Shown in pieces: positions 50,291-64,000 of a DNA stretch of 64,000 nt. The DNA is taken from contig WTGC01000004.1 in the NCBI GenBank assembly GCA_011523705.1, positions 229,974 to 293,973 on the forward strand, read 5' to 3'. Position 1 is the first letter of the stretch, and every line of letters begins with the position of its first letter. Position numbers and translations under genes: made by a program. The stretch comes from Chloroflexota bacterium (GTDB taxonomy: Bacteria; Chloroflexota; Anaerolineae; Aggregatilineales; Phototrophicaceae). The notes under the pieces were generated by a model, which worked only from the letters and a program-made list of their open reading frames with translations, was not told where the DNA came from and ran no database searches.

Positions 50291-51916
50291 ATGCGCCGAA
50301 ATGACATAGGAATGCCGATGACGATGACAGTGGCGGATTTCTTTGCCAACCAACTCGCCAAAGCGGGCGTCGTTCGCGTCTATGGCTTGCCGGGCGGCGA
50401 AAATGTCGAAATCCTGGACGCGATCCGCCACCGGGCGATCGACTTCATCCTGGTCAAGAATGAGAGCAGCGCTTGCTTCATGGCCGCCACTGAAGCGCGC
50501 CTGACCGGGGTCATCGGCGTCGCGCTGACCACGCTCGGTCCCGGCGCAGCCAATGCTTACGCCGGGCTGGCGCACGCCTATCTTGACCGAGCGCCTGTAC
50601 TGCTCATCACCGCGGCGAACGATCCAGAGGTGATCGGCAAGCACAGCCACCAAGTCATCGATTTGAGCGCCGTCTTTAAGCCAGTCTGCAAGCTCAGCGC
50701 CGAGCTGACTGTCAACAACGCCGCCGGCACGATAAGGCGAGCGCTGGCGCTGGCAAAGGCAGAACGCCCGGGACCCGCGCACATCAGCATCCACAATCGC
50801 ATCGCCGCGCAAGCTATCGCCGCTGGAAGTCCGGTTCAAGCGCCCCAGCACGAAAGCTTGGTAGATGCAACCGACATAAATTTGGCGCGCAACCTGCTCG
50901 CGGACAAAGCGAAACCAGTCATTATCGTCGGGCTGGGCTTGGCGCCGAGCCGCCCCTACCAGCAGATCCGCCATCTCGCCGAGTCGCTGGGCGCGCCAGT
51001 GATTGACACGCCGAAGAGCAAAGGCGCGCTATCATCCGATCACCCGCTCTTCGCCTGCACCATCGGCTTGACTCGCGACGATCCGGTCTACCAGCTCCTC
51101 GACGAAGCTGACTCCATAGTCGCCATCGGCTTTGACGTGGTTGAGTTGGTCAAGCCCTGGGAATACGCGAAGCCACTCATCTGGATCGGGGAATGGCCGA
51201 ATCATGATCCGCAGATCGCCTGCGAGCTGGAGCTGGTCGGGAATGTCGCTGAAATCCTGGATGAAATTGGATCAACAGAAGCGAACGCGGCGCCCGATTG
51301 GGGCGCTGCAAGGGTGAGGCGCTTCCGCGCGGAGCTCGCCGGGCGTCCGCTGCCGACGCCCGCGGAAGGCCGTATTCTCCCGCAAACTTTTTTGGAATCC
51401 CTGCGAGATAACAGCCCGGACGATATCATACTGACCACTGATGTGGGCTCGCACAAGATATTCGCCGCCCTGGAATGGGCTGCGCGCGTTCCGAATCGCT
51501 ACTTCGTGTCCAACGGGCTGTCGGCGATGGGCTTCGGCTTGAGCAGCGCGATCGCCGCGGCTGAGATCAGCGGAGAGCCGGTCGTCTGCGTCACCGGCGA
51601 CGCCGGGCTGGCCATGGCGCTGGGCGAGCTGGGATTGCTGGCCGAGCGGCAGCTGCCGGTGCTGATCGCGCTGATGAATGACGCGGCGCTGGATCTGATT
51701 CGCTCGGCTCAAGTTCGGCGGGGACGCCCAGTCTTCGGTACCGTATTTGCCAACCCCGACTACGAATACATCGCGAGAGCTTATGGCAATGGGTATCACA
51801 AAGTCACGTCTCGCGAGGAGTGTGACGCGGCCATCCGCGCTGGACTTGCCTCCAAATCGCCGATGATCATCGATGTGATGATTGATCCGATTGGTTATCC
51901 GACTACGGCGCGCTAG
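50291..51916 (+). CDS. thiamine-pyrophosphate enzyme (acetolactate synthase large-subunit-like)
   Basis: MTVADFFANQLAKAGVVRVYGLPGGENVEILDA, TTLGPGAANAYAGLAHAYLDRAPVLLITA, FGLSSAIAAAEISGEPVVCVTGDAGLAMALGELGLLAERQLPVLIALMND. Exact substrate not assignable. Confidence 0.88.
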   Translation: MRRNDIGMPMTMTVADFFANQLAKAGVVRVYGLPGGENVEILDAIRHRAIDFILVKNESSACFMAATEARLTGVIGVALTTLGPGAANAYAGLAHAYLDRAPVLLITAANDPEVIGKHSHQVIDLSAVFKPVCKLSAELTVNNAAGTIRRALALAKAERPGPAHISIHNRIAAQAIAAGSPVQAPQHESLVDATDINLARNLLADKAKPVIIVGLGLAPSRPYQQIRHLAESLGAPVIDTPKSKGALSSDHPLFACTIGLTRDDPVYQLLDEADSIVAIGFDVVELVKPWEYAKPLIWIGEWPNHDPQIACELELVGNVAEILDEIGSTEANAAPDWGAARVRRFRAELAGRPLPTPAEGRILPQTFLESLRDNSPDDIILTTDVGSHKIFAALEWAARVPNRYFVSNGLSAMGFGLSSAIAAAEISGEPVVCVTGDAGLAMALGELGLLAERQLPVLIALMNDAALDLIRSAQVRRGRPVFGTVFANPDYEYIARAYGNGYHKVTSREECDAAIRAGLASKSPMIIDVMIDPIGYPTTAR

Positions 51917-51984: not shown

Positions 51985-52042
51985 GTAGGGGGCGAGGTTG
52001 GGATTTGCGGGCGGAAACGGGCGACCAAAGACTCGCCTCTAC
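51985..52042. repeat. GTAGGGGCGA-family imperfect palindromic element
   Basis: GTAGGGGGCGAG ... ACTCGCCTCTAC arms. Confidence 0.55.
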
Positions 52043-53607
52043 AGATCCCAGAATGCCAGGCGCGCGAATGTGAACAGCGCGACGAAGAGCACCGGTATCA
52101 ATCCCAGCAACAGCATGCGCCGAATGACCGGACCCTCCTGCCCGCCCAGCCCGACCGTGCTGCAGCCGACGATGATCTTGGCGGGCGCCAGAACGCTGCC
52201 TAGCGAGGCGCCCGCCGTCTGCCCGGCGAGAATGACGGGTACGCTCAAAGCCAAGAGCGTCGCCGTTTCCTGCTGCAAGGCGCCAAAGACCACATTGGAA
52301 TTGGCGTTGCTGCCGGTCATGAATGCGCCCAGCGTCCCGATGAAGGGCGCGAACAAGGGATAGATGTCGGCGTCGAAAGTCTCGCTGATGCCGCGCGCGA
52401 TGATCTGGGTCATGCCGGTGTGCGTCATTAGCGACGCCATCGCCACCAGAGCCAGTATCGATATGGTCGATTTCAGCGCTGACTGCCGCACCTTGGTCCA
52501 GATGTCGCGCCATACCGTCGGACTGTGGTACGAGCCGGCGGCGCGATAAAGGAGAAAAGCGAGCAAGCCGGCATAAAACAGAATAGCGCCCGCGTGGCCA
52601 AACACACTGATCGCGCGGCCCGTCTCGGCCGGTACAGTCCAGCCAAGTCTGGTCGCGACGGCCGGAAACTCGAGCCGAATGATGACGCCGTCCATCAACT
52701 GTTCAATCGGCTCAATCAGGTTGACCGAAAATGCCAACAGCAGCAAGATGACATACGCCGCCAGCGCCAGGACGAGGCTGCGTCCGCTGTCGTCACTCGC
52801 AGCATTTTCGCGCTTGACGCCCCCCTGGTGAAGCGGCGACAACACATAAATCACGCCGACGAGAGCGCCAGCCAGCGCGCCCGATGTCGAGCCCAGGGTC
52901 CAGATGCCATTGGTGGCGATCCACCACTGCGTCAATCCCATCGCCGCGCCAACGATGAGCAGCATGGGTATCGAGCGCAGGAATCCCATCCAACCGGCGC
53001 TGACAAAAGCGACCAGCGCGCCGCTGATCAAGCAGGAAAAACCAAGAATCAAAGCGGCGTCGTGCGCCAGCGCTTCGCCCGGCAGGCCGGTGACGGCGGT
53101 TAAGGCGACGAATGATGTGCCCAGTGAGCCGAATGTCACCGCCCAGCCGTGGCCGAGCGAAGCCATGATCACTGATTGAGTCGCCGTGTAGCCCAAGCCT
53201 ACGAGCAACGGCGCGACCACCGCTATCGGTACGCCAAAGCCGCCGACCCCTTGAATCAGCGATACGAAGATCCAGCTGATGAGCAAGCTCTGCGCGGCGC
53301 GGTCGGCTGTGAGGCGCTGCAGGTTGCGGCCGATCAAGCCCACGGCGCCCGATTCATTGGTAACGTTGTAAAAGAAAAGCGCCATCCAAACGATGTAGAG
53401 CACGTCAATCGCCAGCAGCACCGACTTGCCAATTGCCACCAGCGCCAGATTCGCGTCGCCGCCAAATGCCGTCAGCGCCAGCGCCAGCGCCATCAGAAAG
53501 CCGGCGGTACCGGCTTTGCCGCCGCCCCAGCCCGCGCCCACCATCAGAACCAGCACAGTCAGCACGGGAGATAGCGCCAAAAGCCAATTGACGAGATTCA
53601 AGTCCAA
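52039..53607 (-). CDS. L-lactate permease family transporter
   Basis: 522 aa; SWIFVSLIQGVGGFGVPIAVVAPLLVGLGY, HGWAVTFGSLGTSF, TGSNANSNVVFGALQQETA. Confidence 0.92.
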   Translation of the reverse strand: MDLNLVNWLLALSPVLTVLVLMVGAGWGGGKAGTAGFLMALALALTAFGGDANLALVAIGKSVLLAIDVLYIVWMALFFYNVTNESGAVGLIGRNLQRLTADRAAQSLLISWIFVSLIQGVGGFGVPIAVVAPLLVGLGYTATQSVIMASLGHGWAVTFGSLGTSFVALTAVTGLPGEALAHDAALILGFSCLISGALVAFVSAGWMGFLRSIPMLLIVGAAMGLTQWWIATNGIWTLGSTSGALAGALVGVIYVLSPLHQGGVKRENAASDDSGRSLVLALAAYVILLLLAFSVNLIEPIEQLMDGVIIRLEFPAVATRLGWTVPAETGRAISVFGHAGAILFYAGLLAFLLYRAAGSYHSPTVWRDIWTKVRQSALKSTISILALVAMASLMTHTGMTQIIARGISETFDADIYPLFAPFIGTLGAFMTGSNANSNVVFGALQQETATLLALSVPVILAGQTAGASLGSVLAPAKIIVGCSTVGLGGQEGPVIRRMLLLGLIPVLFVALFTFARLAFWDL

Positions 53608-53742: not shown

Positions 53743-55161
53743 CTATGGAATACAAATTGGAGGTTTCTTCTGATAAAAGCGCGTCGCTTCCTGGAAGGCG
53801 TAAGCCAGCTGAAGCACGGCGAAATCGCTGCGCGGTCGCCCCACAATCTGCAAGCCCACTGGCAAGCCATCGTCCGTGAAGCCGCAAGGCACTGAAATTG
53901 CCGGCAATTCGGTCACCGTGATGAAGGCGCAGCTCATCATCCAGTCAATATAGGTCTCCATCGCTACGCCGTTGATCTGCGTCGGATATTCCCACTCCAG
54001 GAGGAATGGCGGCACCTGCACCGTCGGCAGCAGCAGGAATTCGTACGAATCGAGAAACTCACGCACTCGATGAAAGAGTTCCGTTCGCTTGACTTCAATT
54101 CGGCTGATGTCTGCGCCAGACAAGCCCCGGCCCCGCGCCACATTCCAGCGGATCGTCTCTTTGAACTGCTCCTCGCCGAATTCAGCGAAGCGCTCGGCAA
54201 AGCTTAACTCAAAGGACCAGGCGCGCAGCGTTTGGAAAATGTCATAGGCATCGCGGAATTCCGGCGCCGCCCCTTCTAGCTGACAGCCAAGGTCGCTGAA
54301 TACCGGCAACTGTTTATCAATCGTCTCGGTAACCTGCGGGTCGACCGGCAGCTCGCCCAAGTCGGGGCTGTAGGCAATCTTCACATTCGTGAAGTCTCGT
54401 CCCAGGTCATCGGCAAAGAGAGAGGGCGACGCTTCCAGCGAGATTGGCGCGCGCGGGTCGTAGCCGGCGATCGCCTGCAGCATGAGCCCCACATCTTGCA
54501 CCGTACGCCCCATCGGTCCGTCGACGCTGAGGCGCGCCCAAGCCATCGACGCGGGATATTTTGGCACGCGACCTGGCGATGGCCGAAAACCGACCACATT
54601 GCAGAAACTGGCGGGATTACGCAGCGAGCCACCTAAATCGCTGCCATCGGCAATTGGTATCATGCCAGCGGCTAGCGCCACCGCTGCCCCGCCGCTGCTG
54701 CCGCCGCAAGTTCGGCTCAAGTCATAAGGATTGCGCGTGGCGCCAAAGACGCGATTGAAAGTATGAGAGCCGGCGCCAAACTCCGGCACATTGGTTTTGC
54801 CCAGCGTGATGCAGCCAGCCGCCTTCAAACGCGCGATGATGAGATCATCCGACTCCGGAATATAATCGCGGTACACGGGCGAACCCATCGTCGTGCGGAT
54901 GCCTTTGGTTTCGTTGGCATCCTTGTGCGCGATCGGCAAACCATGCAAGAGGCCCAGTTCTTCGCCGCGCGCCTGCTTGTCGTCGGCTTTGCGCGCCAGC
55001 TCCAGCGCCATCTCCGGCAGGTAGGTAACGATGGCGTTCAACTCCGGGTTTACCGCGTCGATTTGCTCCAGGTGCGCGCGCAGCACTTCCGTCGCGGAGA
55101 CCTCACCGCGCTTGATCAGCGCCGCCAGTTCAACCGCGGTCTTCCATACGAGATCGCTCAT
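53743..55161 (-). CDS. amidase (amidase signature family)
   Basis: 472 aa; GLPIAHKDANETKGIRTTMGS, CGGSSGGAAVALAAGMIPIADGSDLGGSLRNPASFCNVVG. Confidence 0.94.
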   Translation of the reverse strand: MSDLVWKTAVELAALIKRGEVSATEVLRAHLEQIDAVNPELNAIVTYLPEMALELARKADDKQARGEELGLLHGLPIAHKDANETKGIRTTMGSPVYRDYIPESDDLIIARLKAAGCITLGKTNVPEFGAGSHTFNRVFGATRNPYDLSRTCGGSSGGAAVALAAGMIPIADGSDLGGSLRNPASFCNVVGFRPSPGRVPKYPASMAWARLSVDGPMGRTVQDVGLMLQAIAGYDPRAPISLEASPSLFADDLGRDFTNVKIAYSPDLGELPVDPQVTETIDKQLPVFSDLGCQLEGAAPEFRDAYDIFQTLRAWSFELSFAERFAEFGEEQFKETIRWNVARGRGLSGADISRIEVKRTELFHRVREFLDSYEFLLLPTVQVPPFLLEWEYPTQINGVAMETYIDWMMSCAFITVTELPAISVPCGFTDDGLPVGLQIVGRPRSDFAVLQLAYAFQEATRFYQKKPPICIP

Positions 55162-55167
55162 ATTGCT

Positions 55168-55920
55168 TTAGCCTCGCCCGATATACGGCATGCCGTTCGC
55201 CATGACGGTAATGAAGGGCACGTTGACCGTGACCGGCAGATTCGCCATATACACCACGGCGTCGGCCACGTGGCACGCGTCGATTTGCGGTTCGACGGCG
55301 GCTGCGCCTTTCGTTCGCTCAAGCTTGCTTTGCATGCGCTCTGACATTTCTGTTCGCGCGTTTCCGATGTCTATCTGACCGCAAGCGATATTAAAAGCGC
55401 GCCCATCAAGCGATGCGGATTTGGTCAATCCACTCATTGCGTGTTTGGACGCGGTGTAGGCGACTGAATTCGGTCTGGGCACATGTGCCGATATCGACCC
55501 GTTGTTGATGATGCGTCCGCCCTGTGGGTCTTGCGATTTCATCATTCGGAAGGCTTCTTGCAGGCACCAGAAGGCGCCCGTCAGATTCACATCAATCACG
55601 CTCTTCCATTGCTCCGCCGTCAAATCTTCGAGCGAGATCGCCGGCGCGTTCATGCCCGCATTGTTGAAGAGCAGATCCAGCCGCCCAAAACGGCTCTTGA
55701 CCGCGGCGAAAAGTGACGAGACCGCCAACCGATCGCTGACATCAGTGGGCAAGACCAGCGCGCGATCATCGCTGACATTGGCCATGTCGACTGTCTCATG
55801 CAGCGCCTCTTCACGTCGCCCAGCCAGCGCCAGCGAATAGCCGGCCTCCCAAAGGGCCAGCGCCGATACGCGCCCAATGCCGGAACCCGCTCCTGTGATC
55901 AGTCCAATCCGCCGCGCCAT
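55168..55920 (-). CDS. short-chain dehydrogenase/reductase
   Basis: [46 protein letters not shown] (YxxxK). Start MARRIGLI chosen. Confidence 0.92.
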
Positions 55921-56035
55921 CGCATCTCCTCGCCAATCCAAGCCGCGCCAAGTGTACGCCCCTTGTCAATTCGTGACAAGTCGAATTCGATGCGCTACCA
56001 TTTGTCTCGCTGAAGTCAGCGAAGGGACAAAAGAC

Positions 56036-56827
56036 ATGAGAATCGCTTGCTGCATTTGGGCGCTGAGCGATTCCGAAACCGATGTGCTGCGCCAGGTTCG
56101 TGATATCGGCTTCGACACGATCGACATCCAGCCGACGCAGCAGCGGTCGCTGGAAAGCCGTCTCCTGGCGCAAGAGCTTGGCTTGCGCGTCTCCTGCGTC
56201 GGCGCTTCCTTCGGCACACCGGACGGCGCCGCCCTAGATCATGCTGAACCAGGCGGCTTCCAAAGCGCAATCGACCACGCCATCTCGGCGATTCAGCACG
56301 GCGCCGAGATCGGCGCTGATACCGTTTATGTCATACCAAGCGCCAACGATGATCCCGCTGCCCTTTCGCGCTATCGCCGTTCAATCTCGCTACTGGCGGA
56401 TGCAGCAGCTGAACGGGAAATCAAACTAGCTGTCGAGCACTTTCCCGGAACTGCGCTGCCCACCGCTCAAGACACATTGGCATTCATCCGCCAGGTGAAT
56501 CACGAGAATCTATACCTGCTCTACGACAGCGGGCATATTCAGATGTCGGGCGAAGATCCGGCAGCGGTCATCGCCAATGCGGGCGACAGGCTGGGATATA
56601 TTCACCTCGACGACAACGATGGCATCAACGACCTGCATTGGCCGCTGCTCGAGGGCGTGATGACCGACGAATCGTTACTCGCGACCTTGCGCGCGCTCGA
56701 TGCGGTTGGCTACGAAGGGGCATTGAGCCTGGAATTGAGCTCGGCGCTGGCGAATCCAGCACGAGCGCTGCGAGAAAGCCGCGATGTATTGCTGCGCGCC
56801 ACCCATCACGCCTGGCTGGCGCCCTAG
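56036..56827 (+). CDS. sugar phosphate isomerase/epimerase (xylose isomerase-like TIM barrel)
   Basis: MRIACCIWALSDSETDVLRQVRDIGFDTIDIQP, LYDSGHIQMSGEDPAAVIANAGDRLGYIHLDDNDG. Confidence 0.85.
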   Translation: MRIACCIWALSDSETDVLRQVRDIGFDTIDIQPTQQRSLESRLLAQELGLRVSCVGASFGTPDGAALDHAEPGGFQSAIDHAISAIQHGAEIGADTVYVIPSANDDPAALSRYRRSISLLADAAAEREIKLAVEHFPGTALPTAQDTLAFIRQVNHENLYLLYDSGHIQMSGEDPAAVIANAGDRLGYIHLDDNDGINDLHWPLLEGVMTDESLLATLRALDAVGYEGALSLELSSALANPARALRESRDVLLRATHHAWLAP

Positions 56828-57100
56828 GCAGTTAGTTCTTTGTTGCAGACGCGGCAAAAAATCATTATATTAGGCGCTGGTTTTTTCGGCGGCGGCTCAA
56901 TTGCTCGTCTTTGCACAAGCCTAAATCGCCGTCCGCCGCAGATTATCAGCGTTGATCTTGCCTTTTCTGACAATCAATGGCGAGGAGCTTCAGGGTGTAG
57001 CCAAGTCTGCAATCATCGGTCTCACCAGCCTGATGGCAAACGGCATCTCTTGCATATGACAATCTCTTTTGACCGATTCCGCTAATGAAAGGACAATCTC

Positions 57101-58429
57101 GTGTTTAGGAAACGCACACTTCTTCTGGCAATTTTGGCAGTCGTCCTTGCGCTTGTGCCGCTCTCCCTGACGGCGACGGCGCAGAACCCGGACTGTGAAG
57201 GCGATGTGACGCTGACTTATTGGCATCACTGGGGCGGCAACCGCATCCCGCTGCAAGAACATCAAGTCGCCGCTTTTGAAGATGCCCACCCCGGCATCTG
57301 CGTCGACAACGTCTTCTTGCCTTGGGACAACCGCCTTCAGAATCTGCTGGCCGCCATTGCCGCCGGCAACCCGCCCGATGTAACCATGTTTGGGCGGCAA
57401 GACCTGCCCTTCTTCGCCGCGACCGAATCCATCATTCCGCTGGACGATTACATGGCTGCCGATGGCGTCGACCCGGCCATTTTCCACTCTTCGGAATTTG
57501 CCGGCACCCAGTTCAATGGCAAGACCTGGCTGCTGCCGCTGCCCGGCGGTGGCGCTTACAACATCGTCTGGTACAACACCGACCACTTCGCCGAAGCTGG
57601 CATCGAGAGCTTCCCCCAAACCTGGGACGAAATGCTTGATGTGGCGGAGAAGCTGCGCGTAGGCGATGGCGAATTCCTGGAGCGCATCGGCTTGAACGCG
57701 CAATCGACCAGTGGCGCTGGCGCATTCTTGACCTGGCTGAATGCCAATGGCGGCGACTGGATCACACCGGACCTGCGCACCATCACCATCAACAACGAGC
57801 AGGGCGCGCAAGCCCTCGAGTTCATGCAGGCGATGGCCGAGATCAATTACGGCATCGAAGAAGTGAACGCCTTCTGGGAGATGGCGGGCGAATTTGACCA
57901 GGGTCCGCTGATCCATGGTCTGGTGTCGATGGAGATCAACGGCTCCTGGACGCTGTTCCAGGTGGAAGCGCACGCCGAGAATCTCAACTACGATGTCGCG
58001 CCGATTCCCTACGGACCAAATGGCAGCGCCGACCGCCGCGGCAACGCCCATGGCGGCTGGGGTTACATGGTGCCGAAGAACGCCGCGCACCCGGATGAAG
58101 CCTGGAAGCTGGTCAAGTGGCTGACGACCGAGGTCGAAGGCGACGGCGCTTGCTGGTTCATCCAGCAGCAGCAGCGCCCCTCGCCGCTGGTCGAGTGCAA
58201 CGGTTACGAAAAGGATGGCCTAGTGCATCCGCGGGCGGAAGCGCTGCTGGGCGTTGCCGCGCTGGATTACCTGGTGCCCGTCTCGCCAGTGCAGCCCGAA
58301 GCGACGCAAATCATCAACCGCATGGTGGAAGACGTGCTTTTCGGCGACAGTTCAATCGAAGACGCCTTGGCCAGCGCCGAGGCGGAAATCCAGGAGCTGC
58401 TCGACGCGTTCTGGGAAGAATACGGCTAG
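57101..58429 (+). CDS. ABC transporter sugar-binding protein (family 1)
   Basis: 442 aa; signal peptide, VTLTYWHHWGGNRIPLQEHQVAAFEDAHPGICVDNVFLPWDNRLQNLLAAIAAGNPPDV; GTG start with AAAGGA upstream. Confidence 0.93.
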   Translation: MFRKRTLLLAILAVVLALVPLSLTATAQNPDCEGDVTLTYWHHWGGNRIPLQEHQVAAFEDAHPGICVDNVFLPWDNRLQNLLAAIAAGNPPDVTMFGRQDLPFFAATESIIPLDDYMAADGVDPAIFHSSEFAGTQFNGKTWLLPLPGGGAYNIVWYNTDHFAEAGIESFPQTWDEMLDVAEKLRVGDGEFLERIGLNAQSTSGAGAFLTWLNANGGDWITPDLRTITINNEQGAQALEFMQAMAEINYGIEEVNAFWEMAGEFDQGPLIHGLVSMEINGSWTLFQVEAHAENLNYDVAPIPYGPNGSADRRGNAHGGWGYMVPKNAAHPDEAWKLVKWLTTEVEGDGACWFIQQQQRPSPLVECNGYEKDGLVHPRAEALLGVAALDYLVPVSPVQPEATQIINRMVEDVLFGDSSIEDALASAEAEIQELLDAFWEEYG

Positions 58430-58508
58430 AGCTATCTGAATTTGAAATTGGGGCATCCTCCGGTGCCCCAACCTACCTTCCCCAAAATTTCGGTCCGAGA
58501 GCGAAATA

Positions 58509-59471
58509 ATGGCAACAGCATTTGGCTCGCAATTCAGCGCCTTGCGCGGGCGAAGACGAGAACGCTGGAGCGATTTCTCGCCCATGCGGAAGCGCGAAGC
58601 CAAGTTCGGCTTTCTCTTCATCGCCCCATGGTTCATCGGCGTGCTGCTTTTTGCGCTCTTTCCCTTTATCGCCTCCTTTGTATTGAGCTTCACCAAATAC
58701 AATATCGTTGCGCCGCCGGAATGGGTCGGCATTGAGCATTATGAGCACATCTTCACCGATGACCCGCTCTTTCTTAAGTCGCTTAAAAACACCGCCGTCT
58801 ACGTTGGAGGCTCGGTCGCGATCCGCATTGTGTTGGGCTTTGGGCTGGCGCTACTGCTGAACACCAAGGTTCGTTTTCTCGGCTTATGGCGTACGCTCTT
58901 CTACGTGCCTTCGGTCGTGCCAATCGTCGCGCTGTCGATTGTCTGGCTTTACGTGCTGAACGCCCGCGCCGGCTTGCTCAACTGGTTCCTGGGATTCTTC
59001 GGCATATCGCGCATCCGCTGGTTCGCCGACCCCGATTTCGCCATGCTCGCCTTTCTGATCATGAGCACGACCTGGGTCGGTGTGACGATGGTGATCTTCC
59101 TGGCTGGCTTGCAGGGCATCCCGGAGGAGTACTACGACGCGGCAAAGATTGACGGCGCCAACATGGCGCAGCGCTTATGGCGCGTCACCATTCCATTGAT
59201 GACGCCCACGATTTATCTCAACGTCCTCATCAATATCATCGGGGCGTTTCAAGTCTTCACGCAGGTCTTCATTATGACCGGCGGCGCCCCGCGCGATGCG
59301 ACGCGAACTTATGTCTTGCATCTCTTTGACCACGCATTCCAATACCTCCCGCCACAGATGGGGTATTCTTCGGCGCTCGCCTGGATCCTTTTCATGATCA
59401 TTTTCGCCTTCACCGCGGTCATCGTCGCCTCATCGCAGCGCTGGGTCTTTTATCAAGGCGGGGAGGAATAG
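58509..59471 (+). CDS. sugar ABC transporter permease (MalF-type)
   Basis: 320 aa; EEYYDAAKIDGANMAQRLWRVTIPLMTPTIYLNVLI EAA loop. Confidence 0.95.
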   Translation: MATAFGSQFSALRGRRRERWSDFSPMRKREAKFGFLFIAPWFIGVLLFALFPFIASFVLSFTKYNIVAPPEWVGIEHYEHIFTDDPLFLKSLKNTAVYVGGSVAIRIVLGFGLALLLNTKVRFLGLWRTLFYVPSVVPIVALSIVWLYVLNARAGLLNWFLGFFGISRIRWFADPDFAMLAFLIMSTTWVGVTMVIFLAGLQGIPEEYYDAAKIDGANMAQRLWRVTIPLMTPTIYLNVLINIIGAFQVFTQVFIMTGGAPRDATRTYVLHLFDHAFQYLPPQMGYSSALAWILFMIIFAFTAVIVASSQRWVFYQGGEE

Positions 59472-59476
59472 CAGCG

Positions 59477-60361
59477 ATGTCCGCAATAGAGACGCAATCC
59501 GCCAAACTCCGCAGCGAAGCGCTCACCCGCGCGACCCAAATCATCGGGCGCATTGCGCTTTACGGCATACTTATTTTCATGAGCCTGTGGTTCATCGCGC
59601 CCCTGTTTTGGATGTTCATGTCTTCATTCATGCCGCTAGAGCAGGTTGGCGTCTTCCCGGTCGAATGGATACCACGCGTATGGCAGCCGGAAAACTACAC
59701 GGACGCCCTGAAATTCTGGAAGTTCGGCACCACCTTCCGCAACACCATGATCATCACTATCTTCTCGCTCTTCGGCGATATTGGATCTTGTACGCTGGTG
59801 GCCTATGGTTTCGCCCGCTTCCGCTTTCCCTTTCGAGATACGCTCTTCTTGATTTTGCTGGCGACGCTGATGCTGCCCTTCGCCGTCCGTCTGATACCGG
59901 TTTACGCCGCCTATGACGCCATCGGCTGGATCGATACCTTTTATCCCTTGATCGTGCCGAACTTTTTTGGCAACGCCTTTTACATCTTTATCTGCCGCCA
60001 GTTCTTCCTCGGCATTCCACAGGATCTGCTGGACGCGGCAAAGATTGACGGCGCCAGCGAGTTTCGCATTTTTACCCAGGTAATGATCCCGCTCGCGAAG
60101 CCCGCCATCGTCGTCATCGCAATCCTCAGCTTCCAAAACAGCTGGAATGATTTTCTCGGTCCCTTGATTTACTTGAAAGACCCGGACCTGCATACGCTGG
60201 CAATCGGTCTATACAAGTTCACCTCGCTGCCCGGTCAGGGCGGCATCTACAACCAGCAGATGGCGGCGTCCGTGCTAATGGTCATGCCAGTTCTAATCGT
60301 CTTCTTCTTGTTTCAAAAGCAATTTATCCAGGGCGCCAATCTCTCCGGCATGAAAGGCTGA
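59477..60361 (+). CDS. carbohydrate ABC transporter permease (MalG-type)
   Basis: 294 aa; PQDLLDAAKIDGASEFRIFTQVMIPLAKPAIVVIAI EAA loop. Confidence 0.95.
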   Translation: MSAIETQSAKLRSEALTRATQIIGRIALYGILIFMSLWFIAPLFWMFMSSFMPLEQVGVFPVEWIPRVWQPENYTDALKFWKFGTTFRNTMIITIFSLFGDIGSCTLVAYGFARFRFPFRDTLFLILLATLMLPFAVRLIPVYAAYDAIGWIDTFYPLIVPNFFGNAFYIFICRQFFLGIPQDLLDAAKIDGASEFRIFTQVMIPLAKPAIVVIAILSFQNSWNDFLGPLIYLKDPDLHTLAIGLYKFTSLPGQGGIYNQQMAASVLMVMPVLIVFFLFQKQFIQGANLSGMKG

Positions 60362-60372
60362 GTCTCGCGGCG

Positions 60373-61665
60373 ATGGCTTCGCGACCGAACATCCTCTTTG
60401 TGCTGGTCGATCAATTGGGCGCGCGTTGGCTGCCGATACATGGGCAGGTCCAGGTGTCCACGCCGCATCTGGAATCCTTCGCCGCTGAAAGCACCGTATT
60501 CGAACGCGCCATAAGCACTTCGCCCGTTTGCACGCCATATCGCGGCTGCCTGCTCAGCGGCATGTATCCATCACAGACGGGCATCCGCCAGAATGGCCAA
60601 GCATTTCCCAACGATACGCCCAGCCTGGCCGACCATCTCACCGCGGCCGGCTACGCGACGCATTATGTTGGGAAATGGCATCTGAGCGGCGCCCCGCAAG
60701 AGAACCGTTGGGTGCCGCCGGAGAAGCGCGCTGGCTTCCAGCATTTCATTGGTTGGGAAAGTCATCATGTTGATCATCATGCCGGCTTGATCTGGCGCGA
60801 TGATCCTAACGGTCCTAAAGAAATGCCCGGTCATGAGACCGATGCCCTGACTGATATCGCCCTGAATCAACTGGAGCAGGCAGCCCGCGCCAGGAATCCT
60901 TTCTTCATGGTCCTGTCTTATCAAGCGCCGCACCCGCCCTGCTCGCCACCGCGCGAATTTCTCGATCTCTACCGCGGCCAAGATCTGCTTACCGAAGCAA
61001 ACGCCGATGCTGCCGCTTGGTATGACATGCCGCACTGGAATGCCAATTACGACGCGGCGACCTTCCGTCAACTGTACTTTGGCGAAATCAGCCAGCTCGA
61101 TGCCGCCTTCGGCCGATTGCTGAGCGGGCTGGATGAACTGGGCTTGCGCGAGAATACGCTGGTGCTATTCACATCGGATCATGGCGAGATGGCGGGCGCG
61201 CACGGGCTGTTTGGCAAGGGCCTGATGTTCGAAGAATCTCTGCACGTGCCACTGATTGCGCGTGCGCCAAGCCATGCATGCCGACATAGAACCAGCCAGC
61301 TTGCGGCGACGATAGACTTGATGCCAACCCTGCTCGATTACGCCGGCGTCGATCGGCCACTAACGGCTGAAGGTATCTCGCTGCGCGCGCAGATTGAGGG
61401 CGGAACTGCTGATGAAGACCGGATAATGATAAGCGAATTCCAGAATTTCTGCGCCACTGCGCAATCTTGGAAACTCGAAACCAAGGACCGCTCGCTGTTG
61501 CCGGCGGCGCTCTACCACATTGGCGACGATCCCAGCGAACTGGAGAATCGCCTCCATGATCCCGATTGCGCCGGCATCCAGTCAATATTGCAGTCTGCTT
61601 TGACCCGCTGGCACAATCGCATTGTCGCGAACGTCGCTGCAGAACCGACTGAATTGACATCGTAG
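60373..61665 (+). CDS. type I sulfatase (formylglycine-dependent)
   Basis: 430 aa; RPNILFVLVDQLGARWLP, STSPVCTPYRGCLLSGMYPSQTG (CxPxR), YVGKWHLSG, LVLFTSDHGEMAGAHGLFGKG. Confidence 0.95.
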   Translation: MASRPNILFVLVDQLGARWLPIHGQVQVSTPHLESFAAESTVFERAISTSPVCTPYRGCLLSGMYPSQTGIRQNGQAFPNDTPSLADHLTAAGYATHYVGKWHLSGAPQENRWVPPEKRAGFQHFIGWESHHVDHHAGLIWRDDPNGPKEMPGHETDALTDIALNQLEQAARARNPFFMVLSYQAPHPPCSPPREFLDLYRGQDLLTEANADAAAWYDMPHWNANYDAATFRQLYFGEISQLDAAFGRLLSGLDELGLRENTLVLFTSDHGEMAGAHGLFGKGLMFEESLHVPLIARAPSHACRHRTSQLAATIDLMPTLLDYAGVDRPLTAEGISLRAQIEGGTADEDRIMISEFQNFCATAQSWKLETKDRSLLPAALYHIGDDPSELENRLHDPDCAGIQSILQSALTRWHNRIVANVAAEPTELTS

Positions 61666-61673
61666 AAAGGCGA

Positions 61674-63065
61674 ATGACAATGGCGTCCAGCCAATACCAG
61701 AACGTGAGCGGCGTCTATCCGCATCTGGCGCTGAGTGCCGAGCTGGGTCCGCCGCGCACAGAATGCGGCGTCGGCGCCATGATTGCTTGGGCAGGGAAAC
61801 TCTGGCTGGTTACCTATGTCTCGCATAAGTCGGCCAGTGGCGTCGGCACCGGGCTCTACAGCATCAACGAGCGGCTGGAGATGGCTAAACATCCCGATAG
61901 TTACGTCGGCACCTATACCAACCGCATGGTGCATTGGGAATCCAACCAGCTCTTCATCGGTCCACACGTTATCGATTCCGCTGGCAAGGTCCGCACGATT
62001 GAAGATCTGCTGGAAGTGCGGATCTGCTCCACCATGCGCCACCTGAGCGACCAGCAGAATCTGGTCTACATGCTGGGCATGGAAGGCGAATTCTATGAGC
62101 TGAATGTTCATACGCTGGAGACGCGCTTCCTGGCTGACCTCACGGTCGAACTCGGCGTGCCTGACCACCAGTATGCGCATTTCAAAGCCGCCTACAGCAA
62201 CTTTGGCCGCGTTGTCGTGGCCAACAACAGTTATGACGAGCGCGATTTCAGCGGCGTCGAAGCGGCCGGGCGACTGGCGGAGTGGGACGGCGAAAGCTGG
62301 ACCATCATTGAGCGCAATCCTTTCATTGAAGTGAATGGCCGCGGGAACTTCGCCGGCACGATCTTCGCCATGGGTTGGGACAAGCGCTCGGCGATTCTCC
62401 AAGTCTACACGGACGACAATGGCGAATGGAAGCGCTACCGCCTGCCCAAAGCCAGCCACTGTTTCGATCACATGTGGCAGACCGAGTGGCCTCGTATCCG
62501 CGAGGTCGATCATGAGCGCTTCATCATGGATTGCCACGGCATTTTCTACGAGCTTTCCACCTGGGCCTACGAGAATCATATCTGGGGCGTGCGACCGATA
62601 TCGACCCACCTCTGGGTGCACGGCGATTTTTGCACGTATAGAGGAATGCTCGTGCTCGGCGCGGACAACGCCAGCCCGCACAATGGCGCCAATCACCTGG
62701 CGGGCGAGCCACAGTCGGGCTTGTATTTCGGCAAGACGGATGACCTCTGGCAGTTTGGAAAACCGGCCGGTTGGGGCGGCGTTTGGTGGGAGGACGAGGT
62801 CGCGGCCGGTGAAACCTCGGACCCCTATCTGATGACCGGCTTTGACAAGAAAGCGCTGCATCTGACCAACGACGGCGGTTCGCCGGCTCAATTCGTGTTA
62901 GAAGTCGATTTCCTCGGCAACGGCAAGTGGCGAACTTACGACAAATTTGAAGTTCCAGCGGGCGGCTATGTCCATCATGCCTTTCCCGCCGGTTACAGCG
63001 CCCATTGGGTTCGCCTGCGCTGCGAGAATGATAGTGTGGCAACGGCATATTTCACCTATACTTGA
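61674..63065 (+). CDS. hypothetical protein, possibly beta-propeller-like, in the sulfatase cluster
   Basis: 463 aa; 8 bp after the sulfatase stop; repeated WD/WES/FxG blocks; no recognised family. No signal peptide evident. Confidence 0.75.
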   Translation: MTMASSQYQNVSGVYPHLALSAELGPPRTECGVGAMIAWAGKLWLVTYVSHKSASGVGTGLYSINERLEMAKHPDSYVGTYTNRMVHWESNQLFIGPHVIDSAGKVRTIEDLLEVRICSTMRHLSDQQNLVYMLGMEGEFYELNVHTLETRFLADLTVELGVPDHQYAHFKAAYSNFGRVVVANNSYDERDFSGVEAAGRLAEWDGESWTIIERNPFIEVNGRGNFAGTIFAMGWDKRSAILQVYTDDNGEWKRYRLPKASHCFDHMWQTEWPRIREVDHERFIMDCHGIFYELSTWAYENHIWGVRPISTHLWVHGDFCTYRGMLVLGADNASPHNGANHLAGEPQSGLYFGKTDDLWQFGKPAGWGGVWWEDEVAAGETSDPYLMTGFDKKALHLTNDGGSPAQFVLEVDFLGNGKWRTYDKFEVPAGGYVHHAFPAGYSAHWVRLRCENDSVATAYFTYT

Positions 63066-63100
63066 ATGAATCGGACAGATACAGATCGGGATGGCGGACG

Positions 63101-63952
63101 ATGATCAATGGATTTACCAAACTGACAGATGAAGAGCGACAGCAATTCCGCGATGAGGGCTACCTGATCGTACAGAATGCCCTTGATGACAATATGATCA
63201 GCCGTCTCATTGAAGCGGGCGACCGACTCATCGCCACCGACGAGCGGTTCAATCGTTACCAGACCAGCGAATTCTACGATGGCTTTCGCAATTGCATCGT
63301 GATGGACGATGCCTTCATCCCGCTGTTGACGAACGACGTGACCCTGCCGCTGGTGATTCAATTGCTGGGCGCCAACCTGCAGCTTTCGACCAGCCACCTC
63401 ATTTATCGACATCCGGACCCACCGGGTACGCCCTATACGATAAGGCGGCCCGGCTGGCATCGCGATGGCGGCCGCACGCAGCTTGATTTGGGCCAGGACA
63501 ATTATCCGCGATTGGGATTGAAATGCGCCTTTTATCTCACCGACCTCAGCGAGCCGAATTCCGGCGTTACCATGCTGGCGCCGGGCAGCAATCAACTGAC
63601 GGAGCGAATCGAGATTGCCGATGGCGCGACTGACCCGGCCAATGCGCTGGAACCCTTGCTGAATCCAGGGGATTGCGTCATCTTCGAGTATCGCACTTGG
63701 CACGCCGGTGCGCCCAACTTCACCGACGTCACGCGCAAATGCGTCATGATTGGCTACTGCTACCGTTGGCTCAAGCCAATGGATTACGTCAAACAGGATG
63801 CGGCATTCGTGGACAAGCTCAGCGACATCGAGCGCTACCTGGTGGGCGAAGAGGTCGACGATACGGTCGAGTTTCAGCCGCAAGGTGGCGCCAATCCACT
63901 GCATGCATGGTGTGAAGAGCACGGCGTTCAGCAGGATCGGCTCGGGCAGTAA
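63101..63952 (+). CDS. phytanoyl-CoA dioxygenase (PhyH) family protein
   Basis: MINGFTKLTDEERQQFRDEGYLIVQNAL, RPGWHRDGGRTQLD (HxD), EYRTWHAGAPNFTDVTRKCVMIGY distal His. Start chosen at 63101. Confidence 0.92.
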   Translation: MINGFTKLTDEERQQFRDEGYLIVQNALDDNMISRLIEAGDRLIATDERFNRYQTSEFYDGFRNCIVMDDAFIPLLTNDVTLPLVIQLLGANLQLSTSHLIYRHPDPPGTPYTIRRPGWHRDGGRTQLDLGQDNYPRLGLKCAFYLTDLSEPNSGVTMLAPGSNQLTERIEIADGATDPANALEPLLNPGDCVIFEYRTWHAGAPNFTDVTRKCVMIGYCYRWLKPMDYVKQDAAFVDKLSDIERYLVGEEVDDTVEFQPQGGANPLHAWCEEHGVQQDRLGQ

Positions 63953-63976
63953 ACCCATAGGAGGAGTCGCTTCTTC

Positions 63977-64000
63977 TAACCCCATCCCCCGGCCCCTTCC
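63977..64000. repeat. truncated, inverted relative of the 14.46 kb REP-like element
   Basis: TAACCCCATCCCCCGGCCCCTTCC; its reverse complement GGAAGGGGCCGGGGGATGGGGTTA resembles GGGGGCCGGGGGGTGAGGGGTG at 14485. Cut by the window end. Confidence 0.5.

Follow-up and report, generated by a model that had tools for sequence, protein, structure and literature searches.

The 64,000-nucleotide stretch of DNA analyzed here (the window) carries a block of genes that is a conserved sugar uptake and breakdown locus of a sponge-associated Chloroflexota genus. The core of the locus consists of an importer, a 463-amino-acid (463-aa) protein of an undescribed family, an FAD oxidoreductase, and PhyH, and it probably feeds a sugar-acid pathway. 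We defined this core without the sulfatase encoded in the same block, because the sulfatase has been lost from 11 of 33 loci, whereas every one of the 37 family genomes with the 463-aa gene has the FAD oxidoreductase.

Layout and recurrence of the locus

A preliminary description of this DNA had reported seven co-directional genes at positions 56036 to 63952, with short gaps (5 to 79 bp) from the sugar-binding protein gene onward. Open reading frames and Pfam matches placed all seven on one strand at those positions, with the matches running, in gene order, AP_endonuc_2, SBP_bac_1, BPD_transp_1 twice, Sulfatase, none, and PhyH. The short gaps were borne out at 79, 5, 11, and 8 bp, followed by 35 to 41 bp between the 463-aa gene and the first PhyH gene, a value that varies with the PhyH start chosen; we took the ATG that agrees with the orthologues. 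The spacing between the TIM-barrel gene and the binding protein gene is 273 bp. The genes of the block, their divergent upstream neighbors, and the end of the contig are as follows.

52039..53607, − strand: lactate-permease-family transporter (Pfam PF02652, E 2.2e-65; 26 loci)
53743..55161, − strand: amidase-signature protein (Pfam PF01425; above the cut-off of NCBIfam NF005686 "amidase"; 28 loci)
55168..55941, − strand: short-chain dehydrogenase (Pfam PF00106; conserved neighbor in 28 loci)
56036..56827, + strand: TIM-barrel sugar isomerase/epimerase-like protein, 263 aa (Pfam PF01261, E 2.9e-31)
57101..58429, + strand: extracellular sugar-binding protein of a CUT1-type importer (Pfam PF01547, E 2.6e-44; signal-sequence-like N terminus)
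58509..59471, + strand: importer permease 1 (Pfam PF00528; median identity 87% across related loci)
59477..60361, + strand: importer permease 2 (Pfam PF00528; median identity 88% across related loci)
60373..61665, + strand: S1-type sulfatase with CTPYR motif, probably cytoplasmic (Pfam PF00884, E 3.4e-55)
61674..63065, + strand: undescribed-family protein, 463 aa, with a predicted all-beta fold (unmatched in Pfam, NCBIfam, and the PDB)
63101..63952, + strand: PhyH-family Fe(II)/2-oxoglutarate dioxygenase, PhyH 1 (Pfam PF05721, E 3.6e-14)
63953..64000, no strand: end of contig C67; contig C16 (locus L123) begins with the identical bases GCCCCTTCC

Because the same gene order was found again in about 30 other genomes, its recurrence is more than chance. 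Of 38 loci with the 463-aa gene, 33 had permease 2 and 33 the FAD oxidoreductase; PhyH 1 was present in 32, the enolase-superfamily and binding protein genes in 31 each, and a DHDPS-family gene in 26, whereas the sulfatase of the window was present in 21 (one further sulfatase copy was split in that gene call and is included in the 33-locus count below). An orthologue of the TIM-barrel gene occurred in about 27 related loci, and a glycogen phosphorylase gene was equally syntenic (24 loci). Among the divergent neighbors, the short-chain dehydrogenase may have a role in the pathway, and the lactate-permease-family transporter scored below the NCBIfam LctP family cut-off. An acetolactate-synthase-like thiamine diphosphate enzyme (50321 to 51916), below all equivalog cut-offs, is encoded beside the latter gene, upstream of the locus.

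The window and its contig, C67, end at the same point, and roughly half of the locus is found beyond the window, on contig C16 (L123).

C16 98-2383, + strand: FAD oxidoreductase (PF12831; single close match in this genome)
C16 2411-3247, + strand: PhyH 2
C16 3241-4392, − strand: enolase-superfamily, sugar-acid-dehydratase-like protein
C16 4632-5531, + strand: DHDPS-family protein (aldolase)
C16 5546-7072, − strand: another sulfatase
C16 from 7158, + strand: glycogen phosphorylase

The gene order on C16 matches that of intact relatives such as L004, and from this order and the common bases GCCCCTTCC we infer that C67 and C16 are joined. The contig break separates PhyH 1 from the FAD oxidoreductase and falls within a short inverted repeat (CCCCTTCCCCC...GGGAAGGGG). 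This repeat, at 63953 to 64000 and the start of L123, may be a dispersed repeat or a terminator; a terminator-like repeat at the joint could possibly divide the locus into two transcripts.

The FAD oxidoreductase is the closest partner of the 463-aa gene

Beyond the 37 family genomes that have both genes, two have the FAD oxidoreductase without the 463-aa gene, and G473 (of the same genus) and G448 have neither. Fisher's test for this co-occurrence gave a P value of 5e-25, inflated by the relatedness of the genomes. The FAD oxidoreductase is the closest partner of the 463-aa gene. In L042 the 463-aa, FAD oxidoreductase, DHDPS-family, and enolase-superfamily genes lie head to tail, separated by 18 to 22 bp, and in L087 and L088 the 463-aa gene and the FAD oxidoreductase are grouped with a LacI regulator and a more distant importer, with the sulfatase absent. 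Adjacency of the 463-aa and FAD oxidoreductase genes was also found in other genera and in a separate lineage, at 62 to 69% identity.

The 463-aa protein: family, spread, and predicted fold

A single-sequence search with the 463-aa protein gave no match in Pfam, NCBIfam, or the PDB, profile searches of the PDB with short and long forms of the family likewise gave none, and known propeller glycoside hydrolases (GH43 and others) matched it neither by sequence nor by profile. Relatives were recovered in 40 loci by sequence search, mostly from Chloroflexota metagenome-assembled genomes (MAGs) at 67 to 94% identity; the others included one from Phycisphaerales (63%) and three from Alphaproteobacteria (51%). 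The gene was present in 33 of the 34 genomes of the window's genus, in 37 of 98 genomes of its family, and in 4 of 400 genomes drawn from its phylum, the window's own genome included. It also occurred in 40 of 392 genomes sampled from Planctomycetota (the phylum of L035, which is a Phycisphaerales MAG) and, among 385 genomes of the class of Paracoccus, in Paracoccus alone. Viral contigs and phage records contained no relative, and we therefore rejected a viral or phage origin. A bridge to propeller lyases through BNR_4 (PF15892) was also rejected, as no member of that family was found in the window's own genome or in 20 relatives.

In Planctomycetota the family occurs as a short form and as a secreted long form (about 830 aa). 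The long form, with a repeat of the unit's C-terminal half, was seen in L101 to L115 and L043 (Planctomycetota and Spirosoma). By eye, signal peptides could be seen in the long forms and in none of the Chloroflexota forms. On a Spirosoma plasmid, a long relative directly follows SusC and SusD. In Paracoccus, the gene is flanked by an IclR-lactonase fusion on one side and a sugar importer on the other, so that adjacency of importer and 463-aa gene is found again in Alphaproteobacteria, with an unrelated importer. The fusion protein in L036 to L038 is a divergently encoded IclR regulator joined to an SMP-30/gluconolactonase-like domain. Neighbors in Planctomycetota were heterogeneous, comprising single GH101, PL8, GH2, and sulfatase genes and two for 3-keto-disaccharide hydrolases; one FAD oxidoreductase in that tally stems from L087, a Chloroflexota locus.

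An AlphaFold2 model of the 463-aa protein built from 20 sequences was all-beta (pLDDT 68, pTM 0.73), with four-stranded groups predicted with good confidence to about residue 260, a poorly modeled stretch from 261 to 365, and a confident C-terminal sandwich. A second model, of the Paracoccus relative, was weaker (pLDDT 63) and had the same layout. Foldseek matched these low-confidence models, always at low TM scores, to GH43-type five-bladed propellers with sandwiches (TM 0.2 to 0.3), to WD40 and receptor propellers, and to phage tail proteins. As modeled, the fold is probably propeller-like to about residue 390, followed by a C-terminal beta sandwich. Invariant or near-invariant residues in both short and long forms include E30, R84, H87, H123, E137, H169, K171, N185, D236, E271, R274, and R276 (window numbering).

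A tentative and, in our estimation, somewhat doubtful proposal is that the 463-aa protein founds a new family of carbohydrate-active enzymes, beta-propeller glycosidases or lyases, spread across Chloroflexota, Planctomycetota, Alphaproteobacteria, and Bacteroidota, and that in sponge symbionts it partners the FAD oxidoreductase and PhyH in an undescribed oxidative sugar route. The protein could also bind sugar rather than cut it.

The sulfatase is the part of the locus most often lost

The sulfatase scored 187.9 bits against a Pfam PF00884 cut-off of 25, and the sequence SPVCTPYRG at residue 53 contains the CxPxR motif. CTPYR, DQ, GKWH, and SDHG were kept in 22 sulfatase sequences. The score against the choline-sulfatase equivalog (TIGR03417) was 209 bits, below the cut-off of 433, and the best PDB relatives belong to several sulfatase subfamilies. 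As had been proposed, the protein has no signal peptide: the frame 5′ of 60373 lacks a start codon and shares bases with the permease gene. The trio of sulfatase, 463-aa protein, and PhyH, whose co-occurrence elsewhere the preliminary description had made a test of its reading, as it had the lack of an upstream signal peptide, recurs in relatives.

Nevertheless, in 11 of the 33 loci that have both permease 2 and the 463-aa gene, no full sulfatase lies between these two genes. Nearly all of these 11 retain recognizable pieces, mostly of its first 16 to 47 codons, in remaining gaps of 127 to 284 bp. The remnants in L010, L014, L015, L017, L020, L021, L025, L026, and L040 break off at differing points, which shows that a single operon gene has decayed repeatedly and independently. 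On a tree of the 463-aa protein, permease 2, and PhyH 1, sulfatase presence and absence needed at least eight changes, or 10 losses on the assumption of an ancestral sulfatase. Two complete-looking loci, L027 and L039, lack a sulfatase altogether; none was scored in L020 and L024 either, and these two were excluded, L020 because it ends early and L024 because it had a full-length match in the 33-locus gap survey. The related loci of other Chloroflexota (L087 and L088), of the Alphaproteobacteria, and for the most part of the Planctomycetota have the 463-aa gene without this sulfatase. From importer to PhyH, the sulfatase is the least conserved gene (median identity, 67% versus 80 to 88%). It is an accessory gene, and the most often lost part of the locus.

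Most loci carry one or two further sulfatases (SULF2 in 10, SULF3 in 24). The window's own genome (G000, 4.7 Mb) has 28 sulfatase and 42 PhyH domain matches, a strong paralogue expansion, and for this reason the presence of a sulfatase or a PhyH protein tells little about the substrate. Two matches to the FGE domain (PF03781) in the same genome could provide formylglycine maturation of the sulfatase. Sulfatase counts are a poor guide to the substrate, since here the pathway persists whether or not the sulfatase is present.

The importer and the candidate catabolic enzymes

An SBP_bac_1 binding protein with two BPD_transp_1 permeases makes the importer CUT1-type. Neither the window nor the first genes of C16 encode a MalK-type ABC ATPase. 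The binding protein's best PDB relatives, all distant, bind mannan, trehalose/maltose, and arabino-oligosaccharides. Upstream of its gene we looked for a LacI operator; the consensus was absent from the window, and there was no conserved palindrome. A promoter scan found eight candidates versus 3.6 expected.

Neither the TIM-barrel protein nor the enolase- and DHDPS-family proteins reached an equivalog cut-off. All NCBIfam matches of the TIM-barrel protein were far below their cut-offs, the best against the myo-inositol, psicose, and hydroxypyruvate isomerase equivalogs being 55 bits versus 290. The enolase-superfamily protein, assessed through its L004 orthologue, was nearest to galactonate and arabinonate dehydratases (206 versus 311 bits and 200 versus 650 bits). 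The DHDPS-family protein resembles 2-keto-3-deoxy-sugar-acid aldolases. Both of the latter two genes are conserved neighbors within the genus, but neither was found beside the 463-aa gene in L030 (immediately downstream), L034, L087, or L088.

PhyH 1 retains the HxD/E...H triad (HRD at 118 to 120, and H199) and the distal R. PhyH 2 lacks the triad and has in its place HSG, invariant in 30 of 30 sequences, its own C16 copy being identical. HxG or HxA at the iron-binding site is known from 2-oxoglutarate halogenases, and it is equally possible that the following HE/HD of PhyH 2 supplies an alternative iron ligand. Orthologues of PhyH 2 with HSG number 29 to 30 (for example, L004 12964 to 13800). 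PHYHD1 and bacterial relatives strip 2′-O-methyl groups from ribose, so PhyH enzymes can act on sugar rings (PMC12709175). By analogy, demethylation of a methylated sugar may be one concrete reading of the PhyH proteins.

A proposed pathway and its alternatives

We favor, as moderately probable, the reading that this is an oligosaccharide or glycoside utilization locus of the ABC-importer type, native to the sponge-associated genus, in which the 463-aa protein acts on the sugar, PhyH and the FAD oxidoreductase oxidize it, the sugar acid is dehydrated and cleaved by an aldolase, and the sulfatase is accessory. The binding protein and two permeases would import the substrate whole, powered by an ATPase presumably encoded elsewhere. 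In the cytoplasm the 463-aa protein, a putative beta-propeller-like enzyme, would act on the sugar, and PhyH 1 and the FAD oxidoreductase, judging from their families, would oxidize it. The enolase-superfamily dehydratase and the DHDPS-family aldolase would then yield pyruvate and an aldehyde from the sugar acid in a nonphosphorylative route. The cytoplasmic sulfatase, repeatedly lost, would take sulfate off a sulfated version of the substrate.

The preliminary description had instead read the block as a sulfated-carbohydrate uptake and catabolism cluster in which an imported sulfated sugar is desulfated in the cytoplasm. Part of this is supported, namely the conserved carbohydrate locus, the protein of an undescribed family, and the probable placement of the sulfatase in the cytoplasm; sulfate as the central, defining chemistry is not. 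A dedicated sulfated-oligosaccharide or sulfo-sugar pathway with the 60373-61665 enzyme at its center seems to us rather unlikely. The sulfatase gene does lie 11 bp past the permease gene and 8 bp ahead of the 463-aa gene, the additional sulfatases in most loci and the two FGE-domain matches would fit such a pathway, and the sponge matrix is rich in sulfated polysaccharides, for which such guilds have been proposed (PMC5649159). Against it are the loss of the gene from a third of the loci, mostly with remnants, the absence of any sulfatase from L027 and L039, the low conservation, and the 28 matches in the genome, with which sulfatase neighbors are to be expected often. We also set aside sulfoquinovose-type sulfo-sugar breakdown, since S1 sulfatases act on sulfate esters and not on carbon-sulfur bonds.

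A second alternative is that the 463-aa protein is no enzyme but serves the pathway enzymes as a beta-propeller scaffold or sensor in the cytoplasm. Propellers are often noncatalytic, and WD40 and receptor propellers are among the best Foldseek matches, but the many invariant polar residues (the E30 to R276 set) shared by short and long forms speak against it, and the secreted forms with signal peptides, one of them beside SusC/SusD, better fit enzymes or glycan binders; we judge this alternative unlikely. Distinctly improbable is a loose neighborhood in which an importer and independent oxidative genes, not forming one pathway, have been kept together by common descent in one genus. Most loci are indeed from one genus, in which gene order can last without functional linkage, the unrelated glycogen phosphorylase is just as syntenic, and the Planctomycetota neighbors are varied. 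Such a neighborhood accords poorly, however, with the pairing of the 463-aa and FAD oxidoreductase genes beyond the genus, with the adjacency to an unrelated importer in Alphaproteobacteria, and with the operon-like gaps. The locus is nearly universal in the sponge-associated genus and therefore probably underpins a main food source of the sponge-Chloroflexota symbiosis. The 463-aa family, unnamed in Pfam and NCBIfam, now has defined partners to test with.

Comparison with known systems

Clusters of sulfatase and ABC transporter genes for sulfated polysaccharides are already published for sponge symbionts. According to Slaby et al. 2017 (PMC5649159), arylsulfatase genes of sponge symbiont "group II" repeatedly cluster with ABC transporters and a dehydrogenase, and such clusters are proposed to serve the use of sulfated sponge polysaccharides. 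The genomes are of the same kind as ours: bin20 (MPMG) of that Aplysina aerophoba study is locus L021 here, in which the sulfatase between the permease and the 463-aa gene is absent. For the MAGs other than L021, we infer a sponge origin from relatedness and isolate codes. The available portion of that paper has no mention of the 463-aa family, the PhyH pair, or the FAD oxidoreductase, and in the available parts of the related literature we found no earlier account of what is new here, the undescribed 463-aa family and the dispensable sulfatase.

Marine SAR202 Chloroflexota have nonphosphorylative enolase-superfamily pathways, for which growth on fucose and rhamnose was tested (PMC10444878), and enolase expansions (PMC6946804). 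The locus described here resembles them in its enolase-superfamily dehydratase and short-chain dehydrogenase partners, the SAR202 products being lactate or lactaldehyde and pyruvate, but it belongs to a different clade and includes an importer, PhyH enzymes, an FAD oxidoreductase, and the 463-aa protein. Poribacteria, also sponge symbionts, likewise have very many diverse PhyH genes per genome (compare the 42 matches here), most without an assigned function (PMC3909097), whereas here two PhyH genes are fixed in one locus. Finally, the Spirosoma plasmid links the 463-aa family to the SusC/SusD loci of Bacteroidota; the Chloroflexota locus, with no SusC/SusD, has an ABC importer.
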